From Polytrichum commune (taxonomy: Eukaryota; Streptophyta; Polytrichopsida; Polytrichales; Polytrichaceae), in contig OX485805.1 in assembly GCA_950295325.1 (NCBI GenBank), positions 31,235,501-31,299,500 on the forward strand: DNA of 64,000 nt. Reading direction: 5' to 3'. Position 1 is the first letter of the stretch. Each line of letters begins with the position of its first letter. This document shows positions 6,301 to 63,850 of the stretch, one piece after another. Both the position numbers and the translations under genes were made by a program. The notes beneath the pieces are model-generated. The model had not been told where the DNA came from. It worked only from the letters and a program-made list of their open reading frames with translations, and searched no databases.

Positions 6301-7822
6301 AGGTATTTGGTTATTTTTAGACACTTATATTTGAGTGGTATGTGGTTTGGGCGTAGCTCCAAGACTGGGTATCAAAATGACATGTTTCAAAGAGATTGGA
6401 CTATGTGCTTAAGATACGATAATCATTCTAAGTTCAATAGTCAACCTAGTTTGGGGGGAGGGGACCTATACGATCATACAATATACATGAAATCTTCACT
6501 TTGATAATGAATAAGATATTCATATGAGCTCCAAGAATCGTGAGGAAAGGCTATGGCCTTGATATGATTTGCTAACCATCTCGTGCTAATTGTGTGTTTC
6601 ATATCCTAGGATACGCAAGCTAGACAAAGAAAGTAACCATTTAAGACCCATCTACCTTACCTCATTTCCACCCTTCCCTCATACTAATTTGCAAAAAATG
6701 GCATCTACTAGACACTCGCAGCTTATCATTGCCCACATTTGTTCATTGCTACCTTCCCACTTCGGCTCAACTCAGCTAATTAGTAATTACCAAATTCAAG
6801 AATCATATTCCGAGCACGCAATCCAATATCTTTAAAACATATGTCAACTTTTAGCATTCACCCTTGTAGGCCCACCACTCATATATATTAGGTATGAGAT
6901 TAATAACAAAAAAAAGTAACCAAATAAGGGTTGTCTACCTTAGGTGTTACAAAACATCACTTGAGTTTGAACAACCACCTTTGCAAAATGCTCCACTCCA
7001 TGATCATGCTCATATTAACTCACCAAAACCTCCACGGAGAGTGGGAATTATCGTATATGGGCGTACCTCTCATTCATCCAACATAAAAACCTTGAAATAG
7101 TATGCGATCCCATAGATATTTTAAAAAATGGATTTGACACCAAAATTTGCTTTAAAGACCAATCAAGTTTTTATGTTGGATGGATGAGAAATACGCTTGT
7201 ATAGATAATTCCCTCTCTCTCTCACTTCCATCCTTCCCTCCCCTCCTGTCTGCCTCCGAAGTTTGTTGATATTGTTCTCCCCTTGCTCTCGCCATGCATA
7301 TGAGCTCCACAATTGAGCTCCACCCCCACCTCCACCCTTGATTTCTCTCCACTTCTTCACCCCTCCCTCTCCACCCTTCCCTCACCGATTTTTGTATCAA
7401 ATGGCATCGAGTACTCCACTCCCAATGTATCGTTGTTCACAATTATTCATTATTAATAGCTTCTCACTTCGAAATTGAAACTGAGAACAACTGTTCCCTA
7501 CGGTTTTGGGATATAAAAGAGGAGAGACATTAAGGAGGGTCATATTACAGAGGTTAGAGTTAAACACCGATTTCGTTAAAAGTGCAATTCAATATGTAAA
7601 AGTGCACATGAACAAATTATTGCAAACGCATAGATTTCAATGAAAATACAACCATATTATAATTGTATTGGCTATAAAAAAAATTATAACTATGGGTACA
7701 TTTAGATCAATGTTCTTGGTCATTAATCAAATTATAATTTGATGATTTTTGTAAAAAGACTTCATCCTACAATAAGATGAGGAATTCATTTTATGGGAGT
7801 TATGTATAATTATAAAATAAGA

Positions 7823-8170
7823 ACCAATTACGGCTCCACAAGGTGTGGCATATGCCTCACCCCTATAAATCTTGAGAAAACCAATTACGGCTTCACAAGG
7901 TGAGGCATATGCCCCACCCCCTTAAAACTTGGAAAAAAACTAATTATTGCTTTACAAGGTGAGGCATATGCCACACCCCCTTTAAAACTTGAACAAAAAC
8001 TAATAACTGCTTCACAAGGTGAGGCATATGCCCCACCCCCTTAAAACTTGAAAAAAAAACTAATTACTGCTTGACAAGGCGAGGCATATGTCCCACCCCC
8101 TTAAAACTTGAATAAAAACTAATTACAGCTCCACAAGGTGTGGCATATGCCTCACCCCTTTAAATCTTGT
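7823..8170. repeat. Six-unit tandem array of about 58-60 bp with a GTGAGGCATATGCC palindrome
   Basis: Units start near 7823, 7881, 7939, 7999, 8059 and 8118. Each reads roughly CCAATTACGGCTTCACAAGG, then TGAGGCATATGCCCCACCCC and TTAAAACTTG plus an A-run. The first and last units share variants (GGTGTGGCATATGCCTCACC, AAATCTTG) that the inner units lack, as if the array grew from the middle. The core is close to the perfect palindrome GTGAGGCATATGCCTCAC. Confidence 0.85.
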
Positions 8171-9166
8171 TTTTTACAATATCTATTATAATAAATTATA
8201 TTTTGAAGTTATATTATAATATATATTAGATTAAATATTTATAGAAATTCTATTTTATTTCCAAAAAACTAAATAATGACTAGGTATGAGTAGAATAATG
8301 CCACCGGCCCACCTAAAAAAACTCAAGTGTAACTTCTTAAATTTGTGCATGATAGACCAATACAAAGTTTGTCCACACATTTAAAATTTAAAATTAAACG
8401 TTTACCCTAAACCTTAAAACACCGCTTAGGATTAGGTTAAGTTTTTTAGCCACCGCTCTTCTCCACCACCGCTCTTCTCCAACACGGATCTACTTCGGCG
8501 CCTCTTGCTCCTACAACTCTTACTCCAACACCTTCTTGTTTCTCTTCGATGGTTACTCTTCACTCCTTCTTCTAATTATTATTCCTCAAAAGTTCAGAAG
8601 TTTTTCTAGTACTATACCGTCTAACTTATTGCTGCAAATTTTGATCTTTCAGATCTCTATCATCTTATTGCGTTCAATCCACTCTCCAATAACTCTAATG
8701 TCTTCATTTGCAACTCAATTGATCTTCGACTCTACTTTCAACTTATATAGGCGCTTCAACACCAACTCTTATTCAATATTCAAATACCATCGTATTTTAC
8801 ATATTTTACGCTTATTTTCAACTTTATTGAGAACGTACTTCAATTCAACACTCCATTCATATAATTGTTTAACTCTTCAATTTTTTGGAATTCAGATCTA
8901 AATCTGATTTCGTTTTTCAAAACAACACAATTTATTAATTATTACAAAAGATTACAGTATATTTAGTACATGTAGTTCATACTATGAGATTTTCGTAATA
9001 AATGCATCATCCTCATTTTTCAAACTCTGGAATATATGATGTTTACCCTTATATAACCTTTCAAAATCGGTATTACTCATCCGTATTGCTGAATTTTGTT
9101 TTCTTCATTCTTGATTACAAAATATTGTATCACTTCTCTTACTTTCAAGTTTAGGCAAATGTTTTG
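8171..9166. other. Unique spacer between the two palindrome arrays
   Basis: AT-rich at both ends. At 8450-8900 it is strongly pyrimidine-rich (repeated CTCTTCTCC and CTCCAACACC), like a plant 5' leader. An open frame at 8536-8901 reads low-complexity Leu/Ser/Ile and is not convincing as a protein. Confidence 0.4.
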
Positions 9167-9880
9167 AATTTGTTTTTTGGGGGATGAGACACATGCCTCA
9201 CCTTCCTTAAAAAATGTGAATTTCTCCTTAAGCTTGTGCTTAAAGGTGAGGCACATGCCTCACCCTTATAAAACAAAATTCTAAGTTTTTTGGGATTTTT
9301 TTTTTTTGGTGAGGGACATCCCTCACCCTGCTTGAAAAATCTGAATTTCTCCTTAAGCTTGTGCTTAGAGGTGAGACACATGCCTCATCCTTATGAAATA
9401 AAATTCTATGTTTTGAATTTGTTTTTTTCAGGTGAGACACATGGCTCACCCTCTTAGAAAAATTTGAATTTCTCCTTAACCTTGTGTTTAGAGGTGAGAC
9501 ACATGCCTCACCCTTATGAAATAAAATTCTATGTTTTGAATTTTTTTTTTGTGAGGCACATGCCTCACCTCTTTGAGAAATCTGAATTTCTCCTTAAGGT
9601 TGTGCTTAGAGGTGAGAGACATGCCTCACCCTTATGAAATAAAATTCTATGTTTTGAATTTGTTTTTTTCGGGTGAGACACATGCCTCACCCTCTTCGAA
9701 AAATCTGAATTTCTCCTTAAACTTGTGTTTAGAGGTGAGGCTCATACCTCACCCTTATGAAACAAAATTATATATTTTGAATTTGTTTTTTTGGGGTGGG
9801 GCATATGCCTCACCACCTTGAGAAATCTGAATTTCTCCTTAAGTTGATGCTTAGAGGTGAGGCACATGCTTCATCCTTAG
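9167..9880. repeat. Twelve-site palindrome array, about 61-bp monomer in a 125-bp higher-order unit
   Basis: Twelve copies of a palindrome close to GGTGAGGCACATGCCTCACC occur about every 61 bp (near 9184, 9244, 9309, 9370, 9432, 9493, 9550, 9611, 9675, 9736, 9795 and 9856). Alternate spacers differ: one contains GAATTTCTCCTTAAGCTTGT, the other AAATAAAATTCTATGTTTTG and a T-run, which gives a dimeric unit. The palindrome matches that of the 7823-8170 array although the spacers are unrelated. Confidence 0.85.
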
Positions 9881-9994
9881 TAAGAAAATTGATTTTTATT
9901 GTGATTGCTTAAAACGTAATATATTTAGAGGATATTTTTATGTCTTTGAAATGGTTTATGTGTGATTGAATGAAGTGAGGTTGGAGTCGATGTC

Positions 9995-22165: not shown

Positions 22166-22311
22166 TTATTCTGCATTACCAGAATCACAACTGAGGTCTT
22201 GAGCCACCTTGTTTAGTCCTGCTAACTTGGCCCATTCCTTGTCTGCATAGAGCAACGATTTTCTTGCATAATCACTTAATTTGTCCTGGGAGACCCAATA
22301 TGGAAGTTCCA
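22166..22311 (-). pseudogene. Relic of a third AP2-like/coiled-coil paralog (N-terminal piece)
   Basis: The minus strand reads ELPYWVSQDKLSDYARKSLL, then YADKEWAKLAGL, NKVAQDLSCDSG and a stop at 22166-22168. NKVAQDLSCDSG matches VDEVVRDLSCDSG and VDKVVRDLSCDTG of the two intact paralogs. The preceding residues match neither, so this copy has its own N-terminal cassette. Upstream (22312-22480) the sequence matches their 5' leaders (GAAATCTAAGCTGGCTCTTA, GAGAGGGGATGCTGATCGAG). GGTAATG after CDSG could be an old splice donor. Confidence 0.6.
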
Positions 22312-22469
22312 TGGAAATCTAAGCTGGCTCTTAGTACTTTTTACGACGGATTTGTGAGAGGGGATGCTGATCGAGGTTTCTCTATGAGACACAGCATCGA
22401 CCACACACATACTTAACATGCGTCAAACCTTCACAAAAGGTATACTATTAAGCCGAAAGAAGTATGATT

Positions 22470-22640
22470 GATGACTTTGGCCTCTGATACATCATTAACT
22501 TCGCTTCATCTCCTCTGTTACATCAGCAACTTTGCTTTTATCTCCTTTGATCGACATGAGTTCCTTGGTACATCAGATAATTCCACTTTCATCTCCTACT
22601 TTGAAAGGCAACTTCTCTCTGCTACATCAACAACTTCGAA
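22470..22640. repeat. Degenerate TACATCA...CTTCATCTCC tandem repeat
   Basis: Three to four diverged units each contain TACATCA, then AACTT and TCTCCT, with spacing of about 35-55 bp. It lies just upstream of the relic paralog leader and is not seen at the two intact copies. Confidence 0.55.
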
Positions 22641-22699
22641 TGTAGAAGTGAATACTTAAGCATCAGCTCTGAGACCGTGTTAGAAATTGAGATAGAGGG

Positions 22700-25600
22700 G
22701 CAAATCGAGATAATAATTGTCCGGGCTTCTTGTCAATTTCTAATTTCCAAGAGTATAATGAATTTCTCCTTCATTTGACATCTCAAATTCTTTTTGAAGA
22801 ATGGCTTTGACTTGTTGAATGAGTGAATTTCTGTTGCTTATGAAAGTATACAATCATCAATATAAACAGTAATAATTGTGAATCCATGGTCATTTTTTCT
22901 TTTGACATAGATGTTTGCATCGGATTCTAACCTTTGAAATTCATAGAGGAGAAGGTATTACATCAACCATTGATACCAAGCTCTTGAGCATTGCTTAAAT
23001 CCAGAGAAGGGCCTGAGAAGTTTACAAACCATGTTTGGATTGTCAGATGGAGGTAGTCCTTGAGGTATAATCATATAAATACTTTCTTCTAGAAATCTAT
23101 TTAGAGAAGTTGTCTTAACATCTAATTGGAGTATTTCTAAATTATATTGTGTTGCAAGGGCTAACAACACTTTCATTGAATTTAATTTGACAACTAGAGA
23201 ATAAGTCTCCTTGTAATCAATACCATGGACTTGTGTAAAGCCTCTAGCAACTAGTCTAGCTTTGTGCTTGTCAATTATACCATCAACTTTAGTTTTAACC
23301 TTAAAAACTCATTTAGAACTTATTGTTTTTCGATTGGATGGAAGAGGGGTAAGCTTCCAAGTGTTGTTCTTGTCCAAAGATTACAACTCAGCATTTATGG
23401 CAACTTGCCATTCTTTGGCTTCTTATCATGTTAAGGCTTCTTTCATGGTTTGAGGTGGGTCTGATGAAGTATTGACAACGTGTGCTTGATAATGTTGTTG
23501 TGAATATTAAGGTTTCTTTGTTTGTTCTTTGCCTTCAATAGATTCAATTAACCTTTGTGATGATTTAATGTATCTTTTGGGTCAAGCTGAAGAACTTGAC
23601 GGCTGGTTGTAAAAGCTTGGAAGTGTACTTGGTGCTTTTAGTCTTGAAGTTGCTTCAACTTCATGAGATAAGTTTTTTCTATCATTATGTGATGATCATT
23701 CTAAAAATGTTTCAAGTACATCATTATGAGAAGGTGAATTTTGTTGATTTTGCAAAGATTGTCCTTATGGAGGTGGAGGCCCAACGATACTGGATGGCAA
23801 GGGTGGTGATGGCCCGACATTACTTGATGGCAAGGATGGTTGACTTTCCTTTGTTATTGAAGGGTGTATTTTAAATAGTTTTGGATCTATTAGAATCTCT
23901 TCTTGTATTTGGTCTTGCAATGTCATTTCTCCATGAGTTTCATAAAGAATGACATCTCTTCAAATGATAATTTTTTATTTTATTTATTTCTTACTCTATA
24001 GGCCTTTGATTGCTCACAATAGCCTAAGAAGATTGCTTCAAGGGAATATGAATCCAATTTTCTCCTTGTTTCCTTGTGAATCAAGACATTATCTTTGCAT
24101 CCAAAAACTTTAAGATAAGATAAATTTGGTTGTTTTCCATGCCATATTTCAAAAGGAGTTTTGTTGTTGTTATAGCTTTCGTAGGACTTCTATTTTGAAG
24201 GTTATTTGTACTTCGGCCCAAAATGTCTTTGATAATTTAGAATAAGATAACATGGCTAGAATTGCTCCAGTCAACGTGCTATATATTCTTTCATTCTGAC
24301 ACTCCATTTTGTCGTGGTGTGTAGGTTGTAGTAAGTTCTCTTTTGATGCCCTCCTTTTGACAATAATCATTGAACTCGTTGAAGATATATTCTCCACCTC
24401 GATTTGACCTTAGTATTTTAATTTTGTGATTTGTTTGTTTTTATACAAAGCTTTTGTATTGTAGAAACTTATTCAATGCTTGCGATTTACGTGTCGTTAA
24501 GTATACAAGACAATATCTTGAAAGAGCATTAATGAATGTAATGTAAGTACACCTTGTATGTGTCCCAACTTGCATGGGTCCACATGTATCTCAATACACT
24601 ATTTCCAATAATTCGGTGGCTCTATGTGTTGCTTGATTTGGAAATTTTTCTTTATGTTGTTTGCCTTCAATGCAAGATTAACATAAAGTTGTTTCATTTT
24701 CATCAAAAGGTTCAATACCTTTTGACATCATTAGAATTTGTTGCAATCTCTTTTGATTGATGTTGCCTAGTCTTAGGTGCCACAAATATGCTTTGTTTCT
24801 AGATATGTTGTAGCTGGTATAGCAATTTCATGATGATTAGTTATCACAATCACACCTAATTCATATAAGTCAGGATTTAACTTACATGTTGCAATTACTT
24901 GTCCAAACTTGTTGATAAGTGTTAATATCACAGCTTTACTGTGGATTTTTCCATGAGCCATGTCTAATTATTTGGCCAAAAACAAATTCTTTGCAAGTTT
25001 CAGTATGTGTACGACATCATGTATGATCTTCTCATCATCTTTTAAGAGTTTTATGTTTACATCACCATAACCTTCTATGATATATGATCTTGAGTCGTCT
25101 CCTACGTAGATAACTTGTCGATTTTCACTTTTGTATATCTTGTGAAGCTTTCAAGTTGATGACACATATGTTGTGTCGCTCCCAAATCCACATACCATGT
25201 GGAGTTTGATGGAGTTTTAATACCTTTAGCTATTAAAGCTACCACATATAGCTTGTTTGTGTTGGTAACAACATTTGTTTGAGGTTGTTATTAACTTTTT
25301 CTACAGCAATTCTTGTTTTGCAATTTTTAATCACGTGTCTTTTTTTCTTGCAGTAGAAACATTTCTTATCAGCATCAACATTTGTTCCTTTTAAAAGGCT
25401 TGGAGTCAATCTCTCTCCCTTAAAACATGAACTTTCACTAAAGTTCATTTTAGTGTAAGGTTTGTATCCTTTACTAAAAAAAATGTTTGTTACATAAAGT
25501 GTTGATGCGTTATCTGTAATAAAGTTCATATCCTTTATTAGGATTTCTTCTTGAATCAAATCCATGATTGGTAATTGCAAGGTAATCCATGGCCGCCTTC

Positions 25601-26090
25601 TTAAGGAGCTAATGAAAGATCTATAACTTGGAGGAAGACTTCTCATCAAGTGAGTATGGCTTCATCATCACGAACTGTTGAACTTGTTGCTAATAATTGC
25701 TCAAGGTGAGCTCTACAATTATGAATGTGTTTAACAATACTTTCATTCTTAAAGTGTGTAGTTTATCCTTCAAAAACATTTTTGTTACAACGTCATGTGA
25801 TTCAAATAACTTTATTAGTTCTTGCCATGTAAGATGAGCAGATGTGCATGATTGTATACGTAAAACAATATTGTTTTGAAGGCAATTATTGATAATTGTT
25901 AAAGACAAAAACAGTTTTGTCTTCCCATGCACTTATACTTATTGCTCATGTAATAGGTAAAGGTGGGGATCCAACAGCAATTTGTGTTGCCATTTGTGCC
26001 ACCGGTAAGTGTTCTACACCACTTAAAAGGGGCCATAATTTTTTTGCCTTGAAAATCAATGTTAAACTATGTTTCTATAAATTGAAGTAA
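22700..26090 (-). pseudogene. copia gag-pol remnants: gag, CCHC knuckle, integrase, RT to YIDD
   Basis: Recognisable pieces in order on the minus strand: a UBN2-type gag (25690-25932, containing LTWQELIKLFESHDVV, and 25239-25649, containing MRSLPPSYRSFISSLRR); a zinc knuckle CFYCKKKRHVIKNC (C-x2-C-x4-H-x4-C, about 25318-25360); the protease/pre-integrase linker (FGQVIATCKLNPDLYELG, about 24860-24910); integrase core fragments (24170-24400); and reverse transcriptase (QYNLEILQLDVKTTSLN, 22958-23176) reaching YIDDCI near 22850. Frameshifts and stops separate the pieces. Confidence 0.8.
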
Positions 26091-26999: not shown

Positions 27000-28778
27000 C
27001 TATCCACTTCTAAGAACCTCGATTTCACCTTCCAACTCCTGAATTCGAGACTCCATTTGCTTTTTCTGAAGTAGTGCTTGTTGGCTGTCGCGCTCAATCG
27101 CTAAAAAGCGATTTTCCATTCGCTGCATTCGAGACTGTAGCTGCTCTTGCTGGGTTTCCAACAAAGAATTTTCTTTTTCCAAGTGCTGAATTTTAAGTTG
27201 TTGACATTCCCCTTGACGCTGCGATTCTTTCCACTCCCGTTGCAACTCTTTCACCTCTCTTTGAAGGCTACAGTCGTCAATAATCATATTGACTGCTGAG
27301 TCGTTAGCCTGATTCTCTTGCAAGCATGTTTCTGGACGCTGAGGTTCTAAAGGTTGTTCAATAGATTCTCCAGTTCCACTTGTGGCAATGTTGGTTGCCA
27401 CCTCGGGCTGTGATATCGCAGGCGGAGTGGGGTTAAATTCGTCACCACCTACGCCATCACTCGGTGTTCTAAGGTATTGCATCCATTCTGCTCCTGGCGC
27501 TACATTTAAACAATAATTTCTTGGAGATACGGAACGTGCTAAGTCACCACCCTGGTTGCAGAGCTGGGATGGATGTGCCTCATCAGCTTGTACCCCAATG
27601 CTACCACTTGGGACAAAAACTCTTGCACTGACATCAAGACAGTCAGGACTATGAGGAGGTAACGGATTCCCAGTTGCATGGGCCTCACTACTGAGTTGGT
27701 AATTTGCAAAAACGTCCATTACTTTTTCCTTGGCCCATTTCTTCTTCTCCTCTGGACCAAGGCGCTGCCTTTCCTCTGGCATACCTGGAATAGGAAATGT
27801 GGATCCATCTCCCAGAGGGAGCTCGCCTTGAGTGCCCTGCTTGCCATACAAGAAGGCGAGTATTTGATAACGAGCCTTCGCCTCCTTTTCCTCTTCATAA
27901 CAGCCAACATAGATGTAGTTTTTGGAACCTCGGGGCTTGAAACGGGGCTCGAACTTGCCATAGTACACCGTCTCCCCCAACTCGTTCTTTCTAGATTTGC
28001 GGTACAATCCTGGCGAGGGGCGCTGGTTTGACTCAGGAGCAACGTCTCTAAACTTGATCCAAATGTAGGCACCTTGGAACAGCACAATGGAGATATATAT
28101 AGACCTGAATTCTAACGAACCAGATGAATATATTTTACCACCACCCCTATCAAGCATCCCAATCCAATATTGGTAAATCCTTGACAAAAACAGGAGTGCT
28201 GCCATGACGAGGGCATCATAACATACTCTTGCTCTACCAAGAAAACCTAAAGCAATAGGTATGATGAGACTTTCCACTTCCTCCCAATCCTGAGAATTCA
28301 GGGCATTTTGCACAGATAACCGAAAAGTGTCGGAAACGGAGAAGTTCGGAAGCTTAGTTTTAGGTATGAAGATGTAGTCAAGAACTTGTTTGAACTTCAA
28401 CATGAAATATTTCAGCACTTCGACAGATGTGATATTCGCAAATAATTCTGTCCTCACTCTCGGAAACATGAAATAATTGTGTGTTTCTCGTATTTCATGT
28501 ACTGAAACACTCCCCTCCTTGTACCTATCCCCGTAGAGTAGCGTTCGTGACTTTTCAAACACTGTCTCTTCATAGGCCGGCCAAGTTGTTCCAGAATCAC
28601 AACTAAGGTCTCGAACCACCTCGTCTACTCCTTCCCATATAAATTCTATTTCGTCGATACTCCAATTTGAAAACACTCTGCTATAATCTATGAGCTGCGT
28701 TGGCGGATTTATTTCAACTTCAAACTCACCTACAACCATAGGTGCCAAATCCCGTATAGATGCCATCCCGGACATCAT
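27000..28778 (-). CDS. AP2-like domain plus C-terminal coiled-coil protein, paralog 1 (592 residues)
   Basis: Open from ATG at 28778 (tandem ATG ATG) to a TAG at 27000-27002. Residues 1-3 are followed by a 45-residue cassette (GMASIRDLAPMVV...), then a conserved region beginning EGVDEVVRDLSCDSG. A hydrophobic helix lies near 181-205 (ALVMAALLFLSRIYQYWIGM). Residues about 255-313 (GLYRKSRK...VYYGKFEPR...YIYVGCYEEEKEAKARYQIL...YG) match the AP2/ERF fold pattern: Y-R-x-x-R-K, strand, strand, Y-x-G-x-Y, E-E-A-x-A-x-Y. A Pro/Ser/Gln-rich linker leads to a long coiled coil (about 499-590, LQREVKELQREWKE...MESRIQELEGEIEVL). This suggests a dimerising DNA-binding or nuclear protein, but that is inference. 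It has no intron. An identical domain order is found in paralog 2 (47680-49485). Confidence 0.7.
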   Translation of the reverse strand: MMSGMASIRDLAPMVVGEFEVEINPPTQLIDYSRVFSNWSIDEIEFIWEGVDEVVRDLSCDSGTTWPAYEETVFEKSRTLLYGDRYKEGSVSVHEIRETHNYFMFPRVRTELFANITSVEVLKYFMLKFKQVLDYIFIPKTKLPNFSVSDTFRLSVQNALNSQDWEEVESLIIPIALGFLGRARVCYDALVMAALLFLSRIYQYWIGMLDRGGGKIYSSGSLEFRSIYISIVLFQGAYIWIKFRDVAPESNQRPSPGLYRKSRKNELGETVYYGKFEPRFKPRGSKNYIYVGCYEEEKEAKARYQILAFLYGKQGTQGELPLGDGSTFPIPGMPEERQRLGPEEKKKWAKEKVMDVFANYQLSSEAHATGNPLPPHSPDCLDVSARVFVPSGSIGVQADEAHPSQLCNQGGDLARSVSPRNYCLNVAPGAEWMQYLRTPSDGVGGDEFNPTPPAISQPEVATNIATSGTGESIEQPLEPQRPETCLQENQANDSAVNMIIDDCSLQREVKELQREWKESQRQGECQQLKIQHLEKENSLLETQQEQLQSRMQRMENRFLAIERDSQQALLQKKQMESRIQELEGEIEVLRSG

Positions 28779-28908: not shown

Positions 28909-29410
28909 TTGAAAAAAATCTACAGGACATATTTGCTAGGAGTTTGAGACAGGGGATGCCGATTGAAGTTTCTTAAAAAGGACTTGAACTCAAAGAGACA
29001 CAACGCCGACAACTCACATACTTAACCCGCGTCAAACTCCGATAAAGGCATACTATAGAATTGGCCGAAAGAAGTTCGATCAATGACTTTGGCCTCTCTC
29101 GACACGCAGAAGAATTGAAGAAGTGGAAATTTTCACAAGTAGAGCTACTAATCAAAAGGTGGATCAAAGGAGGCTCAGAATGAAGTCCTTAACAAGTACA
29201 AAGTGCTCAACTGCAAAACACACGAAATCAAACCTACCAACATGAAATCCCACGGCTTAAACCTCGCACTGCAGCACAGGGTATTTATAAAGCATGGAGA
29301 TCAGTAGCGGGGTTGGGAAGAAGGTGGAGGTGGGAGGCTAGGGTGGAGACTTCCAACCTAGGGTGGAGAGGTGGAGACTGTGAAGGTAGGGTGGATAGAC
29401 TCTTGCAACC
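28909..29410 (-). promoter_or_regulatory. 5' leader/promoter region of paralog 1
   Basis: About 500 bp, almost unchanged upstream of paralog 2 (49616-50241) and partly kept at the relic (22312-22480). It contains TTGGCCGAAAGAAGTTCGAT, CTCTCTCGACACGCAG and, near 29280 on this strand, a TTTATAAATAC TATA-like box. Transcription should run leftward. Confidence 0.45.
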
Positions 29411-29413
29411 TAA

Positions 29414-29912
29414 GGGCCGCTTCACACACGAGCCAAGAGCCGTTACCATGAAATTTTGAGAGACCAAAACAAAGTGTCCAAAAGCCGTCCCAACACACCT
29501 CCAAAATCATGTAGTGTGGTCACAGACCCTCAAGTGTAGTGTGAAGTCATATGTGACTGGGCCCTCAACCAAATGCTATTTCAATGAATCTCTATTCATG
29601 CGGGCCCTCACACATGGTAAAATAGAATAAACCAATGGTTGTGAGCGTTCGGAGTGCCATTGTCTCCCGGTTTTGTGTTAGGCCTACTTCCAAGAGGTGG
29701 TTTTTGTAAATAATCCAAGTAACCATGAAACATGATCCAATCAATGCAATGTAGCAATCCATGTAGACTTTACATCTATCTTGCATTCACATACTCCGTT
29801 GGTCCCTCAGGCATAGTGTGAAGCGAACTTGGACCGGCTCCGCCTTTTCCACCAATGAGAGTGCTTGAAGTGTAGCGGGCACGAGCTCTCAGTCTCGTGT
29901 GTGAAGTGGCCC
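29414..29912. mobile_element. Harbinger/Tourist-type element H1 (C1)
   Basis: Begins GGGCCGCTTCACACACGAGC and ends CTCGTGTGTGAAGTGGCCC, flanked by TAA on both sides (29411-29413, 29913-29915). GGGCC-type ends with a 3-bp TAA/TTA duplication are typical of PIF/Harbinger MITEs. It has no transposase. The orthologous copy is at 50245-50742. Confidence 0.75.
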
Positions 29913-29915
29913 TAA

Positions 29916-30515
29916 GGGTCACTTCACACATGAGCCAAGAGCCGTGACCTTGTAATGGTGAGGACCCTTGACTCTCATCTGAAGACCGTACCAAGGGTGT
30001 TGGGAAAGTCATTTTATGTAGTCTTGGGCCCTCAAGTGTAGTGTGAAGTGAGAATGAACCATGTTGCGGGACCATTGCATATTTTGTTGGCGGAAAAAGA
30101 GGGGAGGATTTGGTTTCATATAATATGTCTCAAACTTTATCAATTTAAGAGAATTATTTGGTGGTGTTTGTTTGTCCTAGAATTTGTCCTAGAATCCTTT
30201 CTAGAAGTTGCTTTGCAGCCTGTCTGAAATCTGTCTGCTAGAAAAATATTAAAAAAAATTCATGGTCTTCCGATATTTATGTCAGGCCCACCTCTTGGAG
30301 GTGGGTCTAGGTAAAATTTCAGTAGACCATGCACCCTTATCCACAACCTGCCATGTAGGATTCCATGTAGACTTTTCATCCACGAATTTTTCTTTGGGCC
30401 TTTAGGCCTTCACCTCCTAGTGTGAAGTGACCTTGGAAGGTCTTTGCCTTTTCGACCAATGAGATCTCTTATATTGCCATGGTCAGAGGCCTTCAGCCTT
30501 GTATGTGAAGTACCC
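29916..30515. mobile_element. Harbinger/Tourist-type element H2 (C1), abutting H1
   Basis: Begins GGGTCACTTCACACATGAGC directly after the TAA that closes H1 and ends TTGTATGTGAAGTACCC before TTAA. The inverted ends match those of H1 imperfectly. Inside are two near-palindromic halves around AGGCCCACCTCTTGGAGGTG (about 30285-30305). The orthologous copy is at 50746-51335. Confidence 0.65.
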
Positions 30516-30552: not shown

Positions 30553-31520
30553 GGGGGACGTTAAATTTCCCCCCATAGACTTATAGGGGAGGTAGGTTCA
30601 AGTAGGGGCATCCACCTATCCAAAAAATCCAGATTGTTTGGACCCGATCGAAAATTGTTGCCTGCTCACCCAATCGACTTCGAAAAAACCATTGTCCTTG
30701 CATACTTGAAAGCCACTTATCCACAAATCCCATATTGAGTGCACTTCACCTTCAAGGTCCAAAATCCAATATATATGTTCACTTCCATTGACTAAATAAG
30801 CAACTGACTCGGATTTCATTCTCAAAGTGAAATTATTAATAAAGCATGTAAATAACTTAGATGTCAAAAATATTACAAAATCCTCATTAGCACCAAGGTT
30901 GTGATTTTTGTGATTTACCATAATTAAATCATGATTAATTTTATCATTAATCAAGATACATTAAATCTGGTAAGCATGCTTCTTTATTTAATTGGGCTTA
31001 ATTAGACTTAATTACATTCAATCACACTTAATTAGTTAAATGCATATGAAAACTTTGTGAAAGTAGAAGGTATTAACTAGAATACTATAATATTTATCAT
31101 AGTAAAAATAAATCACTAATTTTAGTTCCATTTTAGAATGACAAAGATCCTTTCAATGGTAAGTCACAAAAATCATAACCTCGGTGCTCATGAGGATTTT
31201 GTAATATTTTTGACGTCCAACTTAATTACATGCTTTACTGGGAGTTTCACTTTGAAAATGAAGTCCTAGTCAATTTCTTATTTAGTCAATAAAAGTGATC
31301 AGATATATTGGATTTTGGACCTTGAAAATGAAGTGCATTCAACATGGGATTTGTGGATAAGTGGCCTTCAAGAATGCAAGGGCAATGGTTTTTTCAAAGT
31401 TGGGCTAGCGGGCAACAATTTTTTATTAGGTCTACAAAATATGGATTTTTTAGACGGGCGGCCGCCCCTACCCGAATCTACCTCCCCTATAAGTTTGTGG
31501 GGGGAACTTTAACGTCCCCC
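30553..31520. mobile_element. Foldback Mutator-like MITE (C1)
   Basis: Starts GGGGGACGTTAAA and ends TTTAACGTCCCCC, flanked by a perfect 9-bp duplication CTTGCAACC (30544-30552, 31521-31529). Both arms are inverted copies of each other for several hundred bases (for example AAGTGCACTTCACCTTCAAG on the left arm against its inverse near 31320). The 9-bp TSD and long inverted repeats indicate a Mutator-like foldback element. No transposase is present. Confidence 0.85.
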
Positions 31521-41420: not shown

Positions 41421-42706
41421 GAAACTAAAGAATCAAACTAACACAAATGAAAAAGGAAGAAGAGAAATTACCTTGAAGATGGTCACTACGACCAAGAGCA
41501 CCAAAAACATGTGTCTTTGATAATTTAGAATAAGATAACATGGCTAGAATTGCTAATCAATGTCCTATTCTTTCATTATGACACTCCATTTTGTTGTGGT
41601 GTGTAGGTTGTAGTAAGTTCTCTTTTGATGCCCTCCTTTTGACGACAATCATTGATCTCGTTGAAGATATATTCTCCACCTCGATTTGACCTTAGTAATT
41701 TAATTATGTGATTTATTTGTTTTTCTACAAAGCTTTTGTATTGTAGAAAGTTATTGAATGCTTTCGATTTATGTGTCATTAAGTATACAAGACAATATCT
41801 TGAAAGATCATTAATGAATGTAATGAAGTACACCTTGTATGTGTCCCAACTTGCATGGGTCCACATATATCTGAATGTACTATTTCCAATAATTCGGTGG
41901 CTCTATGTGTTGCTTGATTTGGAAATTTTTCTCTATGTTGTTTGCCTTTAATGCAAGATTGACATAAAGTTGTTTCATTTTCATCAAAAGATTTAAAACC
42001 TTTTGACATCATTAGAATTTGTTGCAATCTCTTTTGATTGATGTTGCCTAGTCTTAGGTGCCACAAACATGCTTTGTTTAGATATGTTGTAGCTGGTATA
42101 GCAATTTCATGATGACTAGTTGTCACATTGACACCTAATTTATATAAGCCAGGATTTAACTTGCATGTTACAATTACTTGTCCAAACTTGTTGATAAGTG
42201 TTAATATCCCAACTTTGATGCGGATTTTTCCACCGGCTATGTCTAATTGTTTGGACGAAAACAAATTCTTTGCAAGTTTCAGTATCTGTACGACATCATG
42301 TATGATCTTCTCATCACCATTTAAGAGTTTTAGGTTTACATCACCATATCTTTCTATGGTTATGAGCCCAAAATGGTTGCTCATATTTGTTTTATGTTTA
42401 GAATCTATTTAGAATTGCATTTGGAGTGTTGTTGAAACAATCAAAAGTATAAAAAGAGTGAGGCTTGGTGTGGTTTATGTTTTAGGCCTTAAGTCTATTT
42501 TGTATGGTTAATTAGAAGCTTAGTGGCATTAGGGAGTGTTTTGATTAAGTGAGTAGTGTTTGATGAAGCAAGGGGGAGGTCCTTGGATTTAAATGTTTGA
42601 TTTAGAACATGTTTTTGTTGGTTTAGGGGGTGAGGGTTTAGTGGATAGGATAAGGTCCTACTAAGTAGGAGAAGGTTAAGGGGTTTGTGGTCTTGGGTGC
42701 ACTCTC

Positions 42707-44872: not shown

Positions 44873-45157
44873 TATAAGGTTTGTTACCTTCATTAAAAAA
44901 AAATGTCTGTTACATAGAGTGTTGATGCGTTATCTGTAATAAAGTTCATATCCTTCATTAGGATTTCTTCTTGAATCAAATCCGTGATTAGTAATTGCAA
45001 GGTAATCCCTGGCTGCCTTCTTAAGGAGCTAATGAAAGATCTATAACTTGGAGGAAGACTTCTTATCAAGTGAGTATGGCTTCATGATCATGAATTGCTG
45101 AACTTGTTGCTAATAATTGCTCAAGGTGAGCTCTACAATTATGAATGTGTTTAACAA

Positions 45158-46456
45158 GGAGGACTTTAAGTACCCCCCACGAACTTTTGGGGGGGCGGGG
45201 GGATATTATGTCAGGGGCAGCCCCCGACATTTTTTCTGCACCTGACCGAAAACTGCTGCCCGCCCGCCCGATTTCGAAAAACTATTGTACTTGCATTTTT
45301 GAAGGCTACTTGTCCACAAATCCCATATTGAGTGCACTTCATTTTCAAGGTCTCAAATCCAATATATATGTTCACTTCCATTGAGTAATAAACAATTGAC
45401 TAGATTTCATTTTCAAAGTGAAACCGCCAATAAAGCATGTAATTAACTTGGAAGTCAAAAATATTACAAAATCCTCATTAGCATTGAGTTATAATTTTTG
45501 TCACTTACAATTCAAAGGGACTTTGTCATTCTAAAATGAAACTAAAATTTATTTTTTTAAATAATATTTTAATATTTTTTCAACTTATTTTCAATATATT
45601 ATATATTATATATTATCTAATATATATTCAATACCTTCTACTATCACAAAGTTTTCATACGCATTTAAACTAGTTAAGTAAGATTGAATGCAACTAAGTC
45701 TAATCATTTCGGATTAATCCTAATTAATCCTATTTAAGCCCAATTAAATCAGAAAATATGCGTACCAAATTAATTAACCCTAATTAATTATAAAATGTAC
45801 TCACTGGAATTAATCATGATTTAAATGGAATTAACTCCAGTAAATATAATTTATGACTAATTAGGCTTACTTAATTTGGTAAGCATATTTTCTGATTTAA
45901 TTGGGCTTAATTAGGATTAATCAGAATATATTAGACTTAGTTGCATTCAATCTTACTTAACTAGTTTAAATGCATATGAAAACTTTTTGATAGTAGAAGG
46001 TATTAACTATATTATATATTATATATTATACTAAACTATTAATTTTTTTTTTAATTAATCATTAATTTTAGTTTCATTTTAGATTGACAAAGTCCCTTTG
46101 AATTGTAAGTGACAAAAATTATAACCTCAGTGCTAATGAGGAATTATGTAATATTTTTGACTTCCAAGTTAATTACATACTTTATTGGCGGTTTCACTTT
46201 GAAAATGAAATCTAGTCAATTGCTTATTTACTCAATGGAAGTGAACATATAGATTGGATTTGAGACCTTGAAAATGAAGTGCACTCAATATGGGATTTGT
46301 GGACAAGTAGCCTTCAAAAATGCAAGTACAATAGTTTTTTCGAAATCGGGCCGGTGGACAACAGTTTTCGGTCGGGTGCAGACAAAATGTCGGGGGCTGC
46401 CCCTGACAGAATACTCCCCCAAAAAAAAGTTCGTGGGGGGGTACTTAACGTCCTCC
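45158..46456. mobile_element. Foldback Mutator-like MITE in copia C2
   Basis: Begins GGAGGACTTTAAGTACCCCC and ends GGGGTACTTAACGTCCTCC, with a perfect 9-bp duplication GTTTAACAA (45149-45157, 46457-46465). The uninterrupted site is in copia C1 near 25727. The arms of more than 450 bp are inverted copies. The centre near 45800 is AT-rich. Same family as 30553, 51371 and 62459. Confidence 0.9.
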
Positions 46457-47202
46457 GTTTAACAACACTTTCATTTTCTTTCATTTTTAAAGTGTGTAGT
46501 TTATTCTTTAAAAACATTTTTGTTACAACGTCATGTGATTCAAATAATTTTATTAGTTCTTGCCATGTAAGATGAGCAGATGTGCATGATTGTATACGTG
46601 AAACAATATTGTTTTGAAGGCAATTATTGATAGTTGTTAAAGACAAAAACATTTTTGTCTTCCCATGCACTTATACTTATTGCTCATGTAATAGGTAAAG
46701 GTGGGGATCCAATAGCAATTTGTGTTGCCATTTGTGCCACCGGTAAGAGTGCTACACCACTTACAAGGGGCCATAATTTTTTTGCCTTGAAAATCAATGT
46801 TAAACTATGTTTCTATATATTGAAGTAAGAACCATTATTTTTAGTACCATGGTTGATGTCCACCTTTTGTGCCATCTTCAATATGCTTGATTTAATATGA
46901 CATGTATTTAAAGTTCTTCCATGAAGATAATAAAATTGTTCCGCCATGCTTCCATTCCTTCCATTTCACTTATGGTTTGTGTTCGATTGTTTATTATGTG
47001 TTTTTTGGTGCAAGATTGGAATCACATTCCATAGGCTTGATGATTTTAATTTCATCAACAACCTCTTTCAATAAAATAAGTTGTTCTTCCATGGCCATTA
47101 CAAGCTATTTTGCAAAATCAATGCAATTCTTTTCTTGTTCAACACTATACTCATTGAACTCAAGGATCAAGCGTTCTAAACATCAAGATTGCTATGAAAC
47201 CA

Positions 47203-47679: not shown

Positions 47680-49485
47680 CTAATCAATTCTGTATGACGG
47701 TCTCGAAACTAGATTGGTGCAGTGCCGCTTGCGATCATGCTGTTCACTTCTAAAAACCTCGATTTCACCTTCCAACTCCTGAATTCGAGACTCCATTTGC
47801 TTATATTGAAGTAGTGCTTGTTGGTTGTCGCCCTCAAACACTAAAAATCGATTTTCCATCCGCTGCATGCGAGACTGCTCCTGCTCTTGGTAAATCTGTT
47901 GCTGGCTTTCCAACGAAGAACAACGAGTTTTTAATTGCTGAATATGAAGTTGCTGACATTCTGATCCACATTGCAAATCCCTGTTCTGCCGTTGCAACTC
48001 TTTCACCTGTCTTTGAAGGCTAAAGTCGTCTGCTGAGTCGTTAGCCTGATTCTCTTGCAAGCGTGTTTCTGGACGCTGAGGTTCTAAAGGTTGTTCATTG
48101 AATTCTCCAGTTCCAATTGTGGCAATGTTGGTTGCCGCCTCGGGCTGTGATCTCGCAATTGACTCAGGCGGAGTGGAGTTAAATTTGTCACCGCCTACGC
48201 CATCACTCGATGTGTCGTTAAATGTGGGATGTTGCATCCATTCTGTTCCTGGCGCTACATTTAAACTATGATTGCTTGGAGATACGGAACGTACTAAGTC
48301 ACCACCCTGGTTGCCGAGCTGGAATGGATGTGCGTCACTTGGGACAATAACTCTTCCATCGACATCAGGACGATCAGGAGGTAACGCATCCCCAGTTGGA
48401 TGGGCCTCAGGACTGCAAAGGGTTCGCAACATTTGATAATATCCAAAAACCTTCTTGGCCCATGCATTCATCAGCTCTGGACCAGGGCGCTGCATTTGCT
48501 CTGACATAGGTGGAATAGTATAAGTGGATCCATCTCCCAGAGTGACCTCGCCTTGAGCGCCCTGCTTGCCATACAAGAAGGCGAGTATTTGATAGTAAGC
48601 CTTCGCCTCCTCTTCCTGTTCATAACGGCCAACATAGATGTACTTTTTGGAACCTGGGGGCTTGAAACGGGGCTCGAACTTGCCATAGTACACCGTCTCC
48701 CCCAACTCGTTCTTTCTAGATTTGCGGTACAATCCTGGCGAGGGGCGCTGGTTTGACTCAGGAGCAACGTCTCTAAACTTGATCCAAATGTAGGCACCTT
48801 GGAACAGCACAATGGAGATATATATAGACCTGAATTCTAACGAACCAGATGAATATATTTTACCACCACCCCTATCAAGCATCCCAATCCAATATTGGTA
48901 AATCCTTGACAAAAACAGGAGTGCTGCCATGACGAGGGCATCATAACATACTCTTGCTCTACCAAGAAAACCTAAAGCAATAGGTATGATGAGACTTTCC
49001 ACTTCCTCCCAATCCTGAGAATTCAGGGCATTTTGCACAGATAACCGAAAAGTGTCGGAAATGGAGAAGTTCGGAAGCTTAGTTTTAGGTATGTAGTCAA
49101 GAACTTGTTTGAACTTCAACATGAAATATTTCAGCTCTTTGACAGATGTGATATCCGCAAATAATTCTGTCCTCTCCCTCGGGCACTGAAATCTTTTGTG
49201 TATTTCATGTTCTGAAACACTCCCCTCCTTGTACCTAGCCCCGTAGAGCAGCTTTCGTGACTTTTCAAACACTGTCTCTGCATAGGCCGGCCAAGTTGTT
49301 CCAGTATCACAACTAAGGTCTCGAACCACCTTGTCTACTCCTTCTAATAATTGAAGTGCCTTGATTGCCTGCTCGCGTTCATCTTCGACAGAATAAGGAA
49401 TCAACTGCTCTAGGAGATGAAGTGGAAACAGCGCCCGTTCCCAACAGATATCATCTAAATTCATAAATCCTATATTCGACATCAT
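47680..49485 (-). CDS. AP2-like domain plus C-terminal coiled-coil protein, paralog 2 (601 residues)
   Basis: Open from the same ATG ATG pair (49485) to a stop at 47680-47682. The frame is open 29 codons further upstream, but no in-frame ATG precedes this one. The N-terminal cassette (NIGFMNLDDICWERALFPLH...) is unrelated to that of paralog 1, and identity resumes at EGVDKVVRDLSCD. The hydrophobic helix, AP2-like region (about 250-307, VYYGKFEPR...YIYVGRYEQEEEAKAYYQIL) and coiled coil (about 486-590) are all kept. About 400 bp covering residues 110-275 show no differences from paralog 1, while the linker has several indels. The C-terminus is longer (EQHDRKRHCTNLVSR...), so the stop has shifted. 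It appears intact and probably expressed. Confidence 0.7.
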   Translation of the reverse strand: MMSNIGFMNLDDICWERALFPLHLLEQLIPYSVEDEREQAIKALQLLEGVDKVVRDLSCDTGTTWPAYAETVFEKSRKLLYGARYKEGSVSEHEIHKRFQCPRERTELFADITSVKELKYFMLKFKQVLDYIPKTKLPNFSISDTFRLSVQNALNSQDWEEVESLIIPIALGFLGRARVCYDALVMAALLFLSRIYQYWIGMLDRGGGKIYSSGSLEFRSIYISIVLFQGAYIWIKFRDVAPESNQRPSPGLYRKSRKNELGETVYYGKFEPRFKPPGSKKYIYVGRYEQEEEAKAYYQILAFLYGKQGAQGEVTLGDGSTYTIPPMSEQMQRPGPELMNAWAKKVFGYYQMLRTLCSPEAHPTGDALPPDRPDVDGRVIVPSDAHPFQLGNQGGDLVRSVSPSNHSLNVAPGTEWMQHPTFNDTSSDGVGGDKFNSTPPESIARSQPEAATNIATIGTGEFNEQPLEPQRPETRLQENQANDSADDFSLQRQVKELQRQNRDLQCGSECQQLHIQQLKTRCSSLESQQQIYQEQEQSRMQRMENRFLVFEGDNQQALLQYKQMESRIQELEGEIEVFRSEQHDRKRHCTNLVSRPSYRID

Positions 49486-49540
49486 TGGCCTAGTTGAAAT
49501 CCTTGTGCTTCTTGGGCCTCCGAACGGGGAGATCCGACCG

Positions 49541-49615
49541 CTAGTTACAGATGGGCCGGTTGAGTTTGACAAATATCCGCTTTGGTTTCAAGACTCTAGG
49601 CAAATCGCCGATCAT
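49541..49615 (-). promoter_or_regulatory. Conserved upstream ORF in the leader of paralog 2
   Basis: ATG at 49615 encodes MIGDLPRVLKPKRIFVKLNR and stops at 49541-49543, 55 bp before the main ATG. Same position and length as at paralog 1. Confidence 0.45.
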
Positions 49616-51370: not shown

Positions 51371-52330
51371 GGGGGACGTTAAACTTCCCCCCACGGACTT
51401 AGGGGAGGTAGATTCATGTAGAGGCACCCACCCGTCCAGAAAATCCAAATTGTTTGGATCCGACCGAAAATTGTTGCCCGCTCGCCCGATTTCGAAAATA
51501 TCATTGCCCTTGCATTCTTGGGGGGCACTTATCCACAAATCTCACATTGAGTGCACTTTATTTTCAAGGTCCAAATTCCAATATATATGTTCACTTTCAT
51601 TGACTAAATAGGCAATTGATTGGGATTTCATTCTTAAAGTGAAACCGTCAATAAAGCATGTAAATAACTTGGATGTCAAAAACATTACAAAATCCTCATT
51701 AGCATCGAGGTTATGATTTTTGTGACTTTTCATAATTAAATCATCATTAATTTCATCATTAATTAGGATAAATTAATTTGGTGTGCATGCTTTCTGGGCG
51801 TAATTAGAATAATCAGGATTAATTAGACTTAATTACATTCAATCACACTTAATTAGTTAAATGCGTATGAAGGCTTTGTGAAAGTAAAAGGTATTAACTA
51901 AAATACTATAATATTTAACATGTTCAAAATAAATCACTAATTTTAGTTCCATTTTAGAATGAGAAATATCCTTTCAATGGTAAGTCACAAAAATCATAAC
52001 CTCGGTGCTAATGAGGATTTTGTAATATTTTTTACTTCCAAGTTAAATACTTGCTTTACTAGCAGTTTCACTTTGAAAATGAAATCCCGGTCAATTGCTT
52101 ATTTAGTCAATAGAAGTGAACATATATATTGGATTTTGGACCTTGAAAATGAAGTGCACTCAATATGGGATTTGTGGATAAGCGACCTTCAAGAATGCAA
52201 GGGCAATGGTTTTTCCAAAGTTGGGCAGGCGGGCAACAATTTTTTATCAGGTCTAGAAAAACTGGATTTTTTGGACGGGTGTTGCCCTTGCCCGAATATA
52301 AGTTCGTGGGGGGGAACTTTAACGCCCCCC
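51371..52330. mobile_element. Foldback Mutator-like MITE (C2)
   Basis: The duplicate of 30553-31520 with the same CTTGCAACC duplication (51362-51370, 52331-52339). It therefore inserted before the block duplication. Confidence 0.85.
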
Positions 52331-62458: not shown

Positions 62459-63454
62459 GGGGGACGTTAAATACCCCCCCCACGAACTTTTCAGACTGTC
62501 AGAGTCGGGCTGGGGCAGCCGCCCGGCCAGAAAATCTAAATTTTTTGGACCCGACCGAAAACTGCTGCCCGCCCGCCCGATTTCGAAAAAACCATTGCCC
62601 TTGCATTCTTGAAGGCCACTTACTCACAAATTCCATATTGAGTGCACTTCACCTTCAAGGGCCAAAATCCAATATATATGTTCACTTCCATTGAGTAATA
62701 AGCAATTGACTGGGGTTTCATTATCAAAGTGAAACCGTCAATAAAACATGTAATTAACTTGGAAGTCAAAAATATTACAAAATCCTCACTAACATTGAGG
62801 TTATAATTTTTGTGACTCACAATTTGAAATTGTCTTTGTCATTCTAAAATGACACTTAAATTTAGTGTGCTGATTTAGTATGTGTATTTTATAATATTTT
62901 AGGTAATGCCGTCTACTTTCACAAGTATTCATACGCATTCAATAATATCAAGTGGGATTAAATATAATTAAGTCTAATTAATCTTCATTAATCTTCATTA
63001 ATCCCAAATAAATCAGAAACTATGCTTACCAAATTAAGTAAACCTAATTGATTATAAAATGTACTTACTGTAATTAATTAATTATTGAAATTAATTCCAG
63101 TGAGTTAATTATAATAATTAATATCTAGAACTTTGTAATATTTTTGACTTCCAAGTTAATTACATGTTTTATTGACGGTTTCACTTTGATAATGAAACCC
63201 CAGTCAATTGCTTATTTACTCAATGGAAGTGAACATATATATTGGATTTTGGCCCTTGAAGGTGAAGTGCACTCAATATGGGATTTGTGAGTAAGTGGCC
63301 TTCAAGAATGCAAGGGCAATGGTTTTTTCGAAATCGGGCGGGCGGGCAGCAGTTTTCGGTCGGGTCCAAAAAATTCAGATTTTCTAGCCGGGCGGCTGCC
63401 CCAGCCCGACTCTGACAGTCCGAAAAGTTCGTGGGGGGGTATTTAACGTCCCCC
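62459..63454. mobile_element. Foldback Mutator-like MITE, fourth copy
   Basis: Begins GGGGGACGTTAAATACCC and ends with the inverse, flanked by the perfect 9-bp CTTGTGAAT (62450-62458, 63455-63463). The arms of more than 350 bp are almost exact inverses (for example GTCAGAGTCGGGCTGGGGC against GCCCCAGCCCGACTCTGAC), so it looks the youngest of the four. Confidence 0.9.
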
Positions 63455-63554: not shown

Positions 63555-63850
63555 TTTAGGGTTTAAGGCCCTTATTCTAGGGGTAGCATTTAGGGTTTAG
63601 GGACCTTACTTAAGGGTTAAGGGTTGTGGTTTACAATTTAGGTTAGGGTTTATGGCTTTAATCAAGGGGTAAGGGTTTTGGGATTACCGTTAAGTTTAGG
63701 TTTAGGGACCTTAAGTAAGGGTCTAGGGTTTTGGTTTTACACTTTAGGTTAGGGTTTAGGGCCCTTAATTAAGGGCTAAAGGGTTTTGGGTTTATAGTTT
63801 AGGTTAAGGCATAGGGCCCTTAATTAAGGGTTTAGGATTTTGGGTTTCCG
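63555..63850. repeat. Degenerate telomere-like tandem repeat
   Basis: Five to six units of about 50-55 bp built from TTTAGGGTTTAGGG, CCTTAATTAAGGG and GGGTTTTGGGTTT. TTTAGGG is the common plant telomere heptamer, but here it is embedded in a longer unit, so this is an interstitial repeat, not a chromosome end. Confidence 0.8.

Follow-up and report, generated by a model that had tools for sequence, protein, structure and literature searches.

Few plant regulators have been studied as thoroughly as AP2 proteins. The window analysed here, a stretch of 64,000 nucleotides (nt) of Polytrichum commune (GCA_950295325.1, contig OX485805.1, positions 31,235,501 to 31,299,500), carries on its minus strand an open reading frame (ORF; copy A, 27000-28778) whose conceptual product combines a divergent AP2-like domain with a hydrophobic helix and a coiled coil. 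The closest described relative is the second repeat of the AP2 group (WRINKLED1/AP2-like), which resembles the family in its modelled order of strands and helix, supplies the top profile match (WRI1) and provides the nearest structures, whereas the family has a single domain with largely changed YRG, WLG and RAYD elements, does not match Pfam AP2 and adds the helix, a conserved motif and the coiled coil. Soloist-type proteins likewise have a single AP2 domain of low conservation outside the main groups, but in the accessible parts of PMC3022922 and PMC9520294 Soloist is single copy and conserved in the plants studied, whereas the present family is expanded and fast evolving; this comparison is by description only. 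The same holds for the moss-specific AP2/ERF clade of PpERF24, which shares lineage-specific AP2 domains with weakened YRG/RAYD but keeps WLG in almost all members, and for which the accessible part of PMC9520294 mentions no TPR repeats or hydrophobic helix; according to that part, moss-specific AP2 proteins include an immunity regulator. Plant membrane-bound transcription factors (NTL NACs, bZIP28) resemble the family in having a candidate anchor adjoining a DNA-binding-type domain (accessible parts of PMC5694209 and PMC9237531), and a few AP2/ERF factors are predicted to be membrane-bound (PMC5694209, same limit); unlike them, the family has its putative anchor mid-protein, with a weak helix in the window copies. 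Among the matches listed, no account of this architecture was found in the open-licence literature.

The reading we favour, for which support and doubt are about evenly balanced, is that of a family with a divergent AP2 fold and a front end that diversifies, most likely with a regulatory role in an arms-race-like process. The ORF of copy A is real and intact, as the original prediction had it: it encodes 592 amino acids (aa) without stops, is read as intronless, and its frame stays open as far as 28880 (626 codons), compared with a longest ORF of 245 codons in 300 shuffles of the stretch. Pfam scans of copies A and B returned weak matches only, mostly to coiled-coil families and all under the cut-off, and the structural neighbours of the full-length AlphaFold2 (AF2) model (mean predicted local distance difference test, pLDDT, 38.7) were uninformative. 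Sequence profiles and a low-confidence model nevertheless indicate that the family is related to AP2 at the fold level, and place the AP2-like region at residues ~257-315 (27834-28010, minus strand), close to the ~255-313 first proposed. A profile of copies A and B against the PDB had WRI1 as its top match (E 0.0014), with E 1.1e-6 once 11 paralogs were included, and hhalign gave 91% for the AP2-like region vs at most 8.65% in 100 shuffles; single family members scored from 15.0 to 1.6 for similarity to AP2 domains, the shuffle maximum being 10.0. The model of the region (pLDDT 55.8) consists of a three-stranded sheet followed by an amphipathic helix and its best four structural neighbours are AP2 domains, so that the structural check suggested at the outset yielded a sheet-plus-helix fold, and a non-AP2 fold did not appear. 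In place of the classical YRG, WLG and RAYD elements, copies A and B have YRKS, YVG and ARYQ/AYYQ. No B3 domain, the partner that would mark a RAV protein, was matched in the Pfam scans, though the AP2-like domain escapes Pfam too.

One cassette, composed of the helix, a 32-residue motif and the AP2-like domain, is common to the family, and an alignment of 11 members covers all three elements. The motif YSSGSLEFRSIYISIVLFQGAYIWIKFRDVAP (28035-28130, minus strand; residues 217-248; consensus SSGS(L/W)(E/D)(F/Y)R..Y...L..GAY...FRDVA) occurs in short and long members alike, and Pfam scans of 11 members gave it no convincing match. Among three subfamilies, hhalign gave 96.7-99.4% for the motif and 95.6%, 88.4% and 38.6% for the AP2-like domain; the helix reached 29% between the two short subfamilies and <1% to the long forms, and beyond the helix no clear hhalign similarity was seen between the N or C termini of the subfamilies. 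The conserved hydrophobic helix is a candidate membrane anchor (28158-28232, minus strand; residues ~183-207), and the strongest hydrophobic window begins 28-38 residues N-terminal of the motif in all 16 open-frame members. On the Kyte-Doolittle scale, 19-residue windows exceed 1.6 in 11 of these 16 and lie at 2.0-2.3 in eight, with 1.47 in copies A and B (residues 183-201 in copy A). That the hydrophobic stretch is intron read-through was considered and rejected, because the 66-nt GT..AG candidate has weak splice sites (donor 5/9) and the encoded motif is conserved across three diverged subfamilies. The C-terminal coiled coil of copy A (27006-27281, minus strand; residues 500-591) appears as a helix over residues 500-591 in the AF2 model, with ten-residue block mean pLDDT of 59 to 93, and its C-terminal 110 residues have a heptad score that 11 out of 500 shuffled sequences reached (for copy B, 12 out of 500). 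Both the hydrophobic helix and the coiled coil of the original prediction are thus present, the unusual domain order around the AP2-like region stands, and the libraries searched put no name to the family.

A search of the host genome (408 Mb, 64 contigs; 30 candidates scored, 22 matches), in which locus counts are lower bounds, gave at least about 20 family loci, 16 of them with open frames. Genes of the window type are open in four cases (A, B, L009 and L010, C3:31.18-31.28 Mb) and broken in three (L011, L012 and L013), and one further broken copy lies on C5. Eight open genes of 449-549 aa are clustered at C7:14.43-14.57 Mb, and four long forms of 960 to 1027 aa at C3:56.56-56.81 Mb. TPR repeats were detected in all three long forms scanned (TPR_2 E 2e-23 in L024, 2.6e-24 in L025 and 1.9e-22 in L026, the last studied from a stretch beginning inside its frame); the scan did not extend to the fourth, L023. 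A second search with the long-form core added a C5 locus lying in several frames (damage or introns), a stop-containing fragment, and L044. In L044, a 260-aa open frame (L044:501-1280) has an AP2-like domain intermediate between the family's and the classical kind, which Pfam misses. Further AP2 proteins with large unfamiliar partner regions were seen at L037, L040 and L041, which include a tandem cluster at C4:37.0 Mb and a 1190-aa open frame with two apparent AP2-like stretches, and L038 holds a RAV-like ORF with an AP2 domain and, by eye, a B3-like stretch. This ORF, the number of AP2 domains, the Copia elements and the TTTAGGG-like repeats point to a land-plant host.

Within the window, copy B (47680-49485 from the ATG, minus strand; 601 aa without stops, read as intronless; 47680-49587, or 635 codons, from stop to stop) and copy A lie within a tandem segmental duplication whose unit is present two to three times. 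It had been argued that two intact copies with the same domain order bespeak a real, selected family; the real, selected family holds, but the argument from order does not, because under tandem segmental duplication the shared order is no independent evidence of selection. The upstream leader of copy A (28932-29097, minus strand) is similar in copy B and in a degenerate relative at 22.2-22.5 kb, relic C, whose leader part (22308-22485, minus strand) is 71% identical to that of copy B over 199 nt. A coding remnant of the relic (22179-22225, minus strand) is 85% identical over 47 nt in the LEGVDKVVRDLSCD region, and the remaining ORF was not found beside it. The flanks of A and B differ by 3.1% on the 3' side (840 nt) and by 7.6% on the 5' side (3787 nt), with about 3-4% in its first 1200 nt. 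Divergence climbs directly after the ATG at 28778 and drops near the stop codon, ORF windows having 5 to 45 substitutions for every 100 nt and those beyond the ORF 0 to 9; these ORF windows lie outside a 405-nt tract (27932-28336, minus strand) that is identical in A and B and spans the helix, the motif and the start of the AP2-like domain. In one alignment of A and B, 10 of 12 gaps inside the ORF have lengths divisible by three vs 2 of 19 in the flanks (Fisher p 8e-5), counts that include a 60-nt ORF gap and a 57-nt flank gap, both at alignment ends; the two non-triplet ORF gaps, one of 2 nt and one of 5 nt, are on opposite sides and separated by 35 nt. Triplet gaps together with high coding divergence indicate a protein that changes within a preserved frame.

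In the window cluster, the N terminus has diverged more than the flanks close to the gene. The core of this divergence is a hypervariable segment directly after the ATG (28632-28772, minus strand; residues ~3-49): row 28722-28622 of the alignment of A, B and L009 shows 32-41% identity, the preceding row, which spans the start codon, 69-76%, the next rows 93-97% on the upstream and 90-94% on the downstream side, and the helix and motif rows 99-100%. The C7 cluster was compared by the proportions of nonsynonymous (pN) and synonymous (pS) differences and by the corresponding rates (dN, dS). Six C7 genes gave pN 0.301 vs pS 0.189 in the N terminus (difference 0.112, bootstrap 0.042 to 0.183), whereas the AP2 part is constrained (pN 0.022, pS 0.101); across all eight, N-terminal dN is higher than dS for 27 of the 28 pairs, which are not independent. 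In nine C7 pairs selected from these 28, divergence of the N-terminal coding part is above that of the upstream 500 nt six times and below it three times. The long forms show constraint in all four regions (dN/dS 0.18-0.54). A nonsynonymous excess between A and B at codons 317-535 (p 0.013) is not used as an argument, the window having been picked after seeing the data; over the wider codons 317-625, p is 0.095.

Front ends that differ sharply between neighbouring copies are frequent in proteins that recognise a moving target. The shared cassette (helix, motif SSGS..FR..Y...L..GAY...FRDVA and AP2-like domain) carries different ends, namely a TPR array in the long forms and, in the short forms, a fast-changing, probably helical N terminus with a C terminus that is either coiled-coil or Q-rich. 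In the proposed mechanism, the coiled coil would dimerise the protein, the AP2-like part would bind DNA or a partner, and the hydrophobic helix would either pack internally or tether the protein to a membrane until release. The variable N terminus would contact a changing partner, which would make regulation in an arms-race-like setting, for example immunity or self/non-self recognition, the most likely role. A fuller version, which we consider unlikely, is a land-plant recognition system of membrane-tethered dimeric AP2-type proteins with TPR-AP2 kin, in which the N-terminal segment would behave like the variable region of a receptor for immunity or self-recognition, with exchange and diversification among tandem copies, and the AP2 part would be released to act on genes. 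If true, a cassette kept while the front end of the protein is swapped or diversified would be a new use of the AP2 fold, and the tandem family with its TPR-bearing relatives would offer testable candidate genes for plant conflict or recognition.

Several observations weigh against an AP2-fold regulator with a diversifying front end, and a number of them suit lineage-specific, ordinary AP2-related regulators in which N-terminal divergence reflects relaxed constraint and gene conversion and the helix is the buried core of a soluble protein; we regard this as a possible explanation, to be held tentatively. On the AP2 side, none of the ORFs or family members scanned rose over the curated cut-off of Pfam AP2 (PF00847), so the profile check suggested with the original prediction found no match, and none of the 107 PF00847 matches listed for the host genome falls at a family locus; a standard Pfam search can accordingly overlook a whole AP2-related family. 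Both structural models are of low confidence, the AP2 comparison between one short subfamily (short3) and the long forms is the one that gave 38.6%, and, with the RGV, WLG and AYD residues changed, DNA binding may be lost. The ordinary-regulator reading gains from moss-specific AP2 domains with weakened YRG/RAYD having been published (PMC9520294, in its accessible part), and from a helix that in the window copies lies under the usual membrane threshold (1.6), although windows reach 2.0-2.3 in half of the 16 members. From 27921 to the ORF end, row identity is 91-100% between B and L009 and 69-94% between A and B, a mosaic pattern suggesting that the copies have exchanged sequence, and the replaced segment has an elevated dS (0.97, codons 35-90). 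The four window-type genes have dN/dS near 1, at 0.84 in the N terminus (dN>dS in one of six pairs), 1.15 in the AP2 part, for which this measure shows no constraint, and 1.29 in the C terminus (six of six pairs in both), and the sequence comparisons suggest that this cluster combines segment replacement with general fast change. In the C7 cluster, AP2 dN/dS is 0.60 over all eight genes vs 0.20 in the close six, the N-terminal excess is not significant in a tight trio and is smaller in well-aligned blocks (pS 0.113, pN 0.160), and the flank comparisons are hard to interpret because eight of nine pairs show 34-51% difference over the 400 nt past the stop. What speaks for diversification over relaxed constraint is the pN-pS of 0.112 in the six C7 genes, which has a bootstrap interval above zero and is larger than relaxed constraint would produce, and the open frames kept at 16 loci.

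That the ORF belongs to a domesticated or still mobile element, as cargo or coding part of a transposon, was also suggested at the outset and is distinctly improbable. The lack of visible introns in the ORFs, the existence of several clusters and of broken copies, and the Copia and palindromic repeats nearby would suit it, as would the occurrence of AP2 domains in HNH endonucleases (PMC3022922, in its accessible part) and weak PHROGs matches (0.027 and 0.24) between copy B and HNH endonucleases. Yet the proteins scanned have no transposase, integrase or polymerase domain and no whole-protein transposase match, no end repeats were noticed bracketing the ORF, and copies A and B share long flanks on both sides, as in segmental duplication; the related genes, some of which have TPR repeats, form clusters at several sites on the chromosomes, and no relatives were found in viral contigs or prokaryotic genomes (scans seeded by short peptide patterns) or in phages. 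An assembly artefact, with A and B as two haplotypes wrongly placed in tandem, would fit the close 3' flanks, but at least four open copies at differing divergence in the cluster, insertions that differ between the units and further clusters on C7 and C3 render it very improbable indeed.

Around the copies, mutually similar palindromic (foldback-like) repeats of ~1 kb lie at 30553-31520, 45141-46474, 51371-52295 and 62459-63454, closer examination covering the first two; that at 45141-46474 was probably inserted after the duplication, as it is absent from copy A's unit. A miniature inverted-repeat transposable element (MITE)-like element at 29409-29917 has 24-nt inverted ends (92% complementary) and TAA at both outer edges. 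Copia retroelement remnants occupy 22600-23600, 24224-25932 and 41512-42408 (minus strand), with a GAG-pre-integrase match at 41782-42408 (E 4.7e-10), weak gag-like matches at 25242-25649 and, by eye, a reverse-transcriptase-like stretch at 22.9-23.3 kb. Two adjacent open frames at 65-1099 (264 and 79 aa) gave chance-level Pfam matches only. Tandem arrays at 9159-9890 and 7815-8169, with units of 123 bp and 60 bp, have a common GTGAGRCAYATGCC-like core, and degenerate TTTAGGG-like repeats in units of 53-55 bp are present at 63590-63847.
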